A program made the position numbers and the translations under genes. Source: a virus. Taken from it: a stretch of 41,254 nt of DNA. Below are positions 358 to 41,254 of this stretch, one piece after another; positions within the stretch are counted from its first letter, which is position 1, and each line of letters starts with the position of its first letter. The stretch is from positions 1 to 41,254 of IMG/VR virus record IMGVR_UViG_3300045283_000142. One strand, 5' to 3'. The notes beneath the pieces were generated by a model. That model made no database searches, was not told the origin of the DNA, and saw nothing but the letters and a program-made list of their open reading frames with translations.

Positions 358-957
358 ATGACTGAGCCGGTGCGACCGCTGGAGGCGCTGATCGCGGAAC
401 TTCTCTCGAAGTGGGGCGCGATTGCCGAATACGAGCACGACGAGCGCGGAAACTTGCAATATGCAGCGGGCATTGATAGATGCGCTGAGGAACTCGAATC
501 GCTCCTCCAGGCTGCCGCCCCGCCTGCACCGACAGCGGAACAGCGAGTGACGCGCCTTGAAGTGGTCGATGAGTCAGGCCGTGCCTTCACGCGGTGGGGT
601 TGCAAGATCGAGTTGAGCTATCAGGACCGAGGCCGCACGTTGAAGGTGTTCGTGGAACCAGATCCCTCCGCTGCACAAGGTCCAGCGCCGGGATGGTTGG
701 ATGGCATACAGGCACTCGCTCGGCAGGCTGCGAATCGCATACGCGAGAGTGGTGGAACGGTAGACACAGCGGACTTAAAATCCGCCGCCGATCAGCATGC
801 AGGTTCGACTCCTGCCTCTCGCACTAATCCAGCCGCCCCGCCTGCACCGACAGCGGAACCGATAGATGTGAGGACGCTCAATGATGCACATGATCGACTC
901 AAAGTGCTTCATGCCGCCCCGCCTGAGCGCGTGAGCGAGGGGAAGGAACCGAAATGA
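358..957 (+). CDS. Hypothetical protein whose frame contains a tRNA-Leu gene
   Basis: This 199-residue protein is of unknown function. The ATG at 358 is chosen because AGGAG lies at 346-350, seven bases upstream; the frame is open further upstream but would overlap the previous gene. The N-terminus (about 1-55) is helical and acidic. Two copies of an 'AAPPAPTAE' linker (near residues 53 and 159) are encoded by a 28-bp direct repeat. Between them the frame reads straight through a complete tRNA-Leu gene on the same strand, giving the odd stretch around residues 129-155. The stop overlaps the next gene (ATGA). Either the protein tolerates an inserted tRNA as linker sequence, or the frame was once two modules joined by recombination. 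Confidence 0.6.
   Translation: MTEPVRPLEALIAELLSKWGAIAEYEHDERGNLQYAAGIDRCAEELESLLQAAAPPAPTAEQRVTRLEVVDESGRAFTRWGCKIELSYQDRGRTLKVFVEPDPSAAQGPAPGWLDGIQALARQAANRIRESGGTVDTADLKSAADQHAGSTPASRTNPAAPPAPTAEPIDVRTLNDAHDRLKVLHAAPPERVSEGKEPK
514..541 (+). repeat. 28-bp direct repeat, copy 1
   Basis: An exact 28-bp match to 832-859, encoding the AAPPAPTAE linker. The two copies bracket a 290-bp segment that contains the tRNA-Leu gene. A 13-bp remnant of the same motif (start of the repeat) recurs at 913-925. Confidence 0.9.
743..823 (+). tRNA. tRNA-Leu (anticodon TAA)
   Basis: A full cloverleaf can be drawn. The 7-bp acceptor stem pairs 743-749 with 816-822, followed by discriminator A823. The D stem pairs GTG 752-754 with CAC 765-767, and the D loop GAACGGTAGA is typical of bacterial Leu tRNAs. 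The 5-bp anticodon stem is 769-773/781-785, with loop CTTAAAA and anticodon TAA at 776-778. The T stem is 799-803/811-815, with loop TTCGACT. The variable region (786-798) is 13 nt, short for a class II tRNA. CCA is not encoded (CTA follows). It lies entirely within the open frame 358-957 on the same strand and would read UUA codons. Confidence 0.93.
832..859 (+). repeat. 28-bp direct repeat, copy 2
   Basis: Second exact copy of the 28-bp repeat at 514-541. It starts 8 bases after the discriminator of the tRNA-Leu. The pair could have mediated insertion or duplication of the tRNA-bearing segment. Confidence 0.9.
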
Positions 958-39845: not shown

Positions 39846-40273
39846 GCACGAATGGAGACGGACCAATTATGGCCTTCGGTGTCTCAACCGTCATCGTCTT
39901 CGCCGTGCTGCTGTCAGGTGCGGCTATGTATGGCTGTCCGAAATACAACGTCTACTCCAGCGAGATGGCTGGAAAGGCGGAACTGGCGCAAGCGGAATAC
40001 AACCGACAGGTCAAAACGCTGGAGGCGGTGCAAGCGCAAGAATCGTCCAAGCATCTCGCGCAGGCCGAAATCGAGCGCGCGAAAGGCGTGGCTGAGGCCA
40101 ACCGCATCATCGGGGATTCACTCAAAGGCAACGAGGACTATCTACGCTATCTGTGGATTCACAATCTCTCAGAGGCTGAGAAGAATGGCGCACAGGTGAT
40201 CTATGTGCCCACCGAAGCCAATCTGCCGATTCTTGAAGCTTCGCGGCAACCTGTGAAGAAGGTGGAAAAATGA
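39842..40273 (+). CDS. SPFH/prohibitin C-terminal-like membrane protein
   Basis: A 143-residue protein with a single membrane helix (about 9-30), then 'CPKYNVYSSEMAGKAELAQA' and a long coiled coil (about 40-85) ending in 'AKGVAEANRIIGDSL'. It closes with 'NEDYLRYLWIHNL' and 'VIYVPTEANLPILEA'. That last part resembles the end of the SPFH/stomatin family, in which a membrane-anchored scaffold organises membrane domains or modulates FtsH-type proteases. The globular SPFH domain is absent, so this is a minimal mimic. I recognise a recurring phage family. It has AAGGAGG before the start and overlaps the Bet/RecT gene. Confidence 0.75.
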   Translation: MSTNGDGPIMAFGVSTVIVFAVLLSGAAMYGCPKYNVYSSEMAGKAELAQAEYNRQVKTLEAVQAQESSKHLAQAEIERAKGVAEANRIIGDSLKGNEDYLRYLWIHNLSEAEKNGAQVIYVPTEANLPILEASRQPVKKVEK

Positions 40274-41154
40274 GCACCGACCTTGTTGTCACCGCGCCGG
40301 CCGTGACGAACGACCAACTCGCCCTCATCAAAGCCACCGTCGCGAAGGACGCCACGACCGACGAACTGAAGCTCTACCTCTACGACTGCGCTCGCATCGG
40401 CGTGCATCCCTTAGACAAGCTGCTCCATTTCACCAAGCGGTCCGGTAAATACACCCCCATCACGAGCATTGACCTGATGCGCATCCGGGCCGCGGAGACA
40501 GGCGAACTCGCCGGCAGCGATGATCCCGAGTTCACCGGCACGCCCGCCCAGAACGACTTCACCGCCCGCGTCACGGTGTGGCGGCTGGTGCAGGGCACGC
40601 GCTGTGCCTTCTCAGCCACGGCTCGCTGGTCGGAATACAAGCCGGATCAGGCATTCATGTGGAACAAGATGCCCCACACGATGTTGGGCAAGTGCGCCGA
40701 GGCGCTGGCGCTGAGAAAAGGCTTTCCGAGGCAGTTGGCGGGCCTCTACGCGAAAGAGGAGATGGACCAAGCGGAGAAGGGCGAGAAGGCTGGTGTCTAT
40801 ACGAAGACAGTGCCAGCCGCCCTGACGAACAACGCCAAGGTGACGCTTGAAGTGAATCCAGAGGAAGACGCGCTGCCGCTGGACCAGCACATCCTCAAAG
40901 CCATCAAGCCGTCGAAGGACAAACTCATCGTCGGCACCGCCGTGACGCACAGGGGCGAAGAACTCCACATCGTCAAAGCCGACATCCTGGCGATTGCTGA
41001 AGAACTGGTGAAAACCGGCCAGCCGATGCTGGGCATCACGGCGATGAAGAATGGTCGCACGTTCGTCCGGGAGTTCATGTCGCCGGAAGCGCAGACCGAG
41101 AATCCAGTGAAGCCAGGGCCGTCGATGGTCACGGCAGACGATTTGAGCTTCTGA
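40270..41154 (+). CDS. bet: Bet/RecT-family single-strand annealing protein
   Basis: A 294-residue protein of the Redbeta/RecT superfamily. The Bet pattern is clear: 'ARIGVHPLDKLLHFTKRSGK' (41-60), 'TSIDLMRIRAAETGELAGSD' (65-84), 'ARVTVWRL' (99-106), and 'MLGKCAEALALRKGFPRQLA' (138-157) followed by 'GLYAKEEM'. It anneals complementary single strands during recombination and replication. No lambda-Exo, RecE or SSB gene was found nearby; the Vsr/DUF559-like nuclease is the only candidate exonuclease-type partner. The C-terminal 100 residues are divergent. Its stop overlaps the TubC-like gene (TGATG). Confidence 0.87.
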   Translation: MSTDLVVTAPAVTNDQLALIKATVAKDATTDELKLYLYDCARIGVHPLDKLLHFTKRSGKYTPITSIDLMRIRAAETGELAGSDDPEFTGTPAQNDFTARVTVWRLVQGTRCAFSATARWSEYKPDQAFMWNKMPHTMLGKCAEALALRKGFPRQLAGLYAKEEMDQAEKGEKAGVYTKTVPAALTNNAKVTLEVNPEEDALPLDQHILKAIKPSKDKLIVGTAVTHRGEELHIVKADILAIAEELVKTGQPMLGITAMKNGRTFVREFMSPEAQTENPVKPGPSMVTADDLSF

Positions 41155-41254
41155 TGGCTCCCATCGAGTTGAAGGGCGGGCTGATTGTGGATACGGCAGC
41201 TCTCGGTCTCGCTCTGGAGCTTGAAGCGGCCGGCATCACACTCACGGGGAAGGA
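41128..41254. repeat. Right copy of the 127-bp terminal overlap
   Basis: Exact copy of 1-127. It contains the end of the Bet/RecT gene and the first third of the TubC-like gene, which continues at position 128 on the circle. Confidence 0.95.
41154..41254 (+). CDS. TubC-like protein, truncated by the window edge (second copy of 27-127)
   Basis: Not a separate gene: it is the first 33 codons of the TubC-like gene, repeated because of the terminal overlap. The full gene is at 27-242. Confidence 0.9.
   Translation, partial: MAPIELKGGLIVDTAALGLALELEAAGITLTGK

Follow-up and report, generated by a model that had tools for sequence, protein, structure and literature searches.

A tRNA-Leu(UAA) gene inside an open reading frame between linker repeats in a soil tailed phage

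Altered anticodon loops in phage tRNAs have been proposed to allow escape from anticodon nucleases, and phages are reported to avoid encoding a RelE-targeted tRNA-Leu, written tta (PMC10264068). Phages with tRNA-dependent lysogeny exist as well (PMC10865867). The locus described here shares a complete tRNA with both groups; its anticodon loop, however, is identical to that of alphaproteobacterial tRNA-Leu(UAA), and a profile search for an integrase gave no match among the ORFs scanned (a subset of ORFs). The tRNA-Leu(UAA) genes of Rhizobium phage Pasto, Serratia phage 4S and Burkholderia phage Bcep43 have the same isotype and anticodon, likewise form a complete cloverleaf, and are 77-81% identical in the matched part to the tRNA of the window (the whole stretch of 41,254 bp analysed here). 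All three encode CCA, whereas the tRNA of the window does not. The annotated tRNAs of Pasto and 4S have annotated genes on either side, that of 4S immediately following a CDS, whereas here the tRNA lies inside a frame with a homology-supported domain upstream. We note that the tRNA-Leu(TAA) of Bcep43 (NC_005342.2, L085:995-1081), complete with CCA according to ARAGORN, is unannotated in the record.

That upstream domain resembles the phrog_10600 family of small phage proteins, found in Ruegeria phage RpAliso, Rhodobacter phage RcXuper and many IMG/VR phages, with the common core VTRxEVIDExGR...QDxGRTLKVF. Proteins of this family normally end at most 20 residues past TLK; here 103 residues continue through the tRNA. 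Among open-licence papers, we found no literature on phage tRNAs within protein genes.

Layout of the locus and its repeats

The window (61.3% GC) derives from a soil tailed phage whose genome encodes a P22-like portal, a terminase large subunit and RecT. An exact direct terminal repeat of 127 bp (1-127 and 41128-41254) closes the contig on itself, so the genome is probably complete. The features considered below are the following:

358..957, + strand: ORF of 199 aa containing the tRNA, with a Shine-Dalgarno-like AGGAG before ATG 358; its TGA (955-957) shares bases with the following start (ATGA)
358..513, + strand: N-terminal module, ending in YAAGIDRCAEELESLL, with in-frame codon signal
514..541, + strand: 28-bp repeat, copy 1, encoding the linker AAPPAPTAE
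544..660, + strand: phrog_10600-like domain (VTRLEVVDESGRAF...RTLKVFVEP), function unknown (PHROGs E 3.4e-6; codon signal; pLDDT 85-92)
661..742, + strand: spacer from domain to tRNA, stop-free, no codon-usage signal
743..823, + strand: tRNA-Leu(UAA) by ARAGORN and Rfam, with discriminator A at 823 and no encoded CCA (823-826 read ACTA)
832..859, + strand: 28-bp repeat, copy 2, in the same frame as copy 1
862..954, + strand: C-terminal tail (IDVRTLNDAHDRLKVL...), with a weak codon signal for the frame of the ORF and without relatives in the phage collection
954..1169, + strand: next small gene, whose start overlaps the stop of the 199-aa ORF
40270..41154, + strand: RecT-family single-strand annealing protein (Pfam RecT 5.7e-18, phrog_2780 5e-30), upstream of the ORF across the terminal repeat

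As described in the original prediction, the ORF of 199 residues reads the tRNA in frame and on the same strand without a stop, from ATG 358 to TGA 955-957. The AGGAG sits seven bases before the ATG; a mechanical alternative start, TTG 208, would extend the frame to 249 aa. The small gene upstream of the ORF (27-242) matches the TubC_N docking domain below threshold and is 64-65% identical in the sister phage L078.

The two 28-bp repeats are also as predicted: they are exact, encode AAPPAPTAE and bracket 290 bp that hold the tRNA. The copies lie 318 bp apart, corresponding to 106 codons, and are in the same codon phase. At the size and composition of this genome approximately 5e-8 such repeat pairs are expected, and the repeat is the only direct repeat of at least 20 bp in the genome other than the 127-bp terminal repeat. 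The enclosed segment carries the phrog_10600-like domain together with the tRNA.

The position of this sole internal repeat exactly at the junctions, in a contig assembled from a metagenome, might also reflect an artefact, either a misjoining of two loci through the 28-bp repeat or an undetected indel masking a stop codon downstream of the domain; that homologs stop shortly past the phrog_10600 domain would fit as well. The contig closes on itself, however, and normal sequencing reads are long relative to a 28-bp repeat, and we regard an assembly or sequencing error as quite unlikely.

The tRNA gene and its possible roles

ARAGORN calls a tRNA-Leu with anticodon TAA at 743-824, the sole tRNA in the genome. 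The original prediction of a complete cloverleaf on the strand of the ORF is borne out: RF00005 matches 743-823 at a score of 60 bits (cut-off 29; E 1e-10, model positions 1-71), the acceptor, anticodon and T stems are all fully paired, and the tRNA has the D-loop GG, A73 and a UAA anticodon. The variable region comprises approximately 13 nt with a stem of just 2 bp or so, compared with 4 in the alphaproteobacterial relatives, and full function of the tRNA is not certain with so short an arm. The 3' end reads ACTA rather than the ACCA of the compared relatives, hence a host enzyme would have to complete the CCA.

A sample of 385 genomes, which is centred on one class (that of an alphaproteobacterial MAG) and does not identify the host, gave alphaproteobacterial tRNA-Leu as the nearest tRNAs, with 82% identity across their full length. 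Compared with these, the acceptor stem is changed from GCGAGCG/CGCTCGC to GCGAGAG/CTCTCGC and the T stem from GCGGG/CCCGC to GCAGG/CCTGC, in each case with compensation on both sides of the pair. Judged from the sequence, such compensated differences favour a maintained tRNA. The exact tRNA core has no match among the viral sequences searched.

As to its role, compensation for codon usage had been suggested, as had replacement of a host tRNA cleaved in defence. The codon counts do not support the former: TTA is rare, not enriched, with 21 of 10,643 codons (2.0 per 1000; 21 of 792 Leu codons; at most four in any gene), as counted within the phage in a hand-picked set of genes from the ORF list. 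Escape from a nuclease is not favoured either, as the anticodon loop CTTAAAA is identical to that of an alphaproteobacterial tRNA-Leu(UAA), which may not be the host's. A further option is that the tRNA is kept for lysogeny, as an integration site or in place of a host tRNA disrupted by integration. Phages of this kind are known (see above), yet the scanned ORFs include no integrase, and we consider this explanation very improbable. We expect an ordinary accessory tRNA, which would be matured from a shared transcript with some penalty for the enclosing gene.

A different arrangement of tRNA and gene is seen in two terminase relatives, where a tRNA-Gln(TTG) with encoded CCA (L248:9934-10010 and L222:1944-2020) ends one base before the ATG of terL and takes the place of its ribosome-binding site. 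Processing of its 3' end would leave the terL message nearly leaderless.

Coding signal and the frame through the tRNA

Residues 53-99 of the ORF match positions 8-61 of the 62-position phrog_10600 profile (E 3.4e-6), a family for which 229 viral relatives were found. The domain possibly has an internal GTG start at 547. Its usual place is the C-terminus: in 69 of 78 homologs the tail after the TLK motif comprises at most 20 residues. The tail of 103 residues here is the longest of all, the next counted having 66. The domain is thus present outside the C-terminal position typical of the family, and the protein is chimeric. Matches to phrog_10600 in the terminase relatives L286 and L287 were not confirmed on translation (one strand, long frames partly read).

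Codon usage divides the ORF into parts. Scored per codon in the ORF frame, the N-terminal module (+0.17) and the domain (+0.15) are positive, the tail is slightly so (+0.05), and the spacer (-0.16) and the tRNA (-0.27) are negative; the segments are short, and the score of the tail rests on 31 codons. Both other forward frames score -0.36 or lower in N-terminal module, domain and tail. Codon usage therefore points to coding up to 660 and, with less weight, from 862 onwards, and does not support it across the spacer and the tRNA. An AlphaFold2 model of the 199-aa protein gives a pLDDT of 85-92 for the domain and values down to 41 for the tRNA-encoded stretch. The spacer is modelled as a helix with moderate confidence (pLDDT approximately 70-78), and part of it could be coding; the model is based on 16 sequences with a pTM of 0.32, and only its domain is reliable.

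These data bear on the possibility of a real fusion protein, in which the tRNA was taken up as coding sequence, the 199-aa product is under selection and the cloverleaf is a relic. The ribosome-binding site at the start of the frame, the overlap of stop and start at its end and the helix predicted in the spacer are consistent with such a protein. The fully paired tRNA stems with their compensated changes, the missing codon signal and low pLDDT of the tRNA-encoded part, and the early end of most relatives after the phrog_10600 domain argue against it, and we consider a selected fusion unlikely.

How unusual is a tRNA inside an ORF? Two loci of phiCbK taken as a tRNA control contain no tRNAs, and GC-rich bacterial tRNA loci were therefore used instead. 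Of 48 distinct tRNAs in these loci (GC above 55%; the tRNAs are bacterial rather than phage-borne, most of them chromosomal and from three genomes), 12 are enclosed entirely by a start-to-stop ORF of 150 aa or more, and three by one of 199 aa or more. Given the former rate, embedding alone is ordinary and no signal in itself. Moreover, the stretch 661-831 is still open in 39% of shuffles that keep the tRNA and its phase. The open frame across the tRNA is most likely a side effect of the high GC content, and not a sign of an RNA with two uses; the lack of stops in the tRNA is no evidence of selection for a double role as message and tRNA. What stands is a real domain and a tRNA with no in-frame stop between them.

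A run-on of this kind is also found in two AT-rich relatives, where the frame upstream of a phrog_10600 gene reads through a tRNA-His without a stop (L139:2063-2626, L140:74-637), although the likely ATG of these genes, preceded by GAAGGA, falls just after the tRNA-His. We regard these cases as a chance run-on over a tRNA beside the same phrog_10600 domain.

The original prediction had proposed that one RNA serves both as message and as tRNA precursor. In its strongest form, the tRNA within the gene would be under selection, cutting by RNase P would limit the small protein, and message and tRNA would be mutually exclusive. Such a role would be consistent with the absence of any stop from domain to tRNA, which would make any cut transcript non-stop, and with the shared strand of the tRNA and its flanks on either side, within a tight run of genes. 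It is weakened by the base rate of embedding, by the likelihood of an open frame by chance and by the missing codon signal through the tRNA, and no second phage with the same ORF-tRNA layout was found. Selection for a dual-use RNA is in our judgement improbable. More doubtful still is a specific version of it, namely that each transcript is either translated into the 199-aa protein or cut to yield the tRNA, such that maturation sets the protein level and ribosomes are passed to non-stop rescue.

Proposed origin and expression

The original prediction saw in the locus the capture of a tRNA by recombination between linkers. The linker part of this proposal gains from the unique exact repeat and its in-frame spacing, as well as from two relatives. 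One of them (G015, terminase 83% identical) has at locus L288 a related N-terminal module (YAEGMERCAEELEAEL) that is followed, after its linker, by a different C-terminal part, which makes module swapping at linkers plausible; weak similarity to the module is also seen in L073 and L074. The other is the sister phage L078, to which alone a search with the neighbouring gene p1 led. L078 keeps the upstream order recT-p1, and the resemblance of its syntenic gene is limited to the start MT[D/E]PVR (MTDPVR), past which it diverges, with no tRNA at the syntenic place. A simple capture of the tRNA, in contrast, does not hold, since the repeats bracket the phrog_10600 domain as well. Neither an uninterrupted gene nor either parent gene nor a true empty-site version was found among the relatives searched, and a search with the whole ORF gave no relatives among viral and genome contigs; together with the lack of a viral match to the tRNA core, this precludes an empty-site comparison. 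We therefore infer the recombination history from the repeat alone, and likewise the direction and order of events.

The reading we prefer, and hold to be rather probable, is that of a chimera formed by joining at linkers together with an acquired tRNA, with no stop left in between, a run-on frame as the result, and a tRNA processed from a common transcript. According to this reading, a tRNA-Leu(UAA) gene that looks functional would have been acquired into a mosaic region of small genes downstream of recT, with RecT as a candidate agent of short-homology joining. The 5' part of 358-957 would combine the N-terminal module, the AAPPAPTAE linker and the normally C-terminal phrog_10600 domain, followed by spacer and tRNA; the second copy of the linker would mark a join to the tail of another small gene. 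An in-frame join over 106 codons and the absence of stops would then have given a single run-on frame, presumably with no selection on the peptide encoded by the tRNA.

The tRNA is probably transcribed together with the small genes, from which RNase P and 3' nucleases would excise it, with CCA added later. Each cut by RNase P would leave a truncated upstream message that lacks a stop codon, and uncut transcripts could yield the 199-aa protein with a poorly ordered tail.

Overall, the locus is a genuine but modest oddity. A tRNA within an ORF is common in GC-rich DNA, and a base rate is needed before any single case is called special. The locus illustrates a possible route by which small phage genes are exchanged, namely at linkers they have in common, and how a coding unit can come to enclose a tRNA gene that is nevertheless retained. 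Should this tRNA be processed, the locus would provide a natural test of the effect of RNase P cutting on a translated message.
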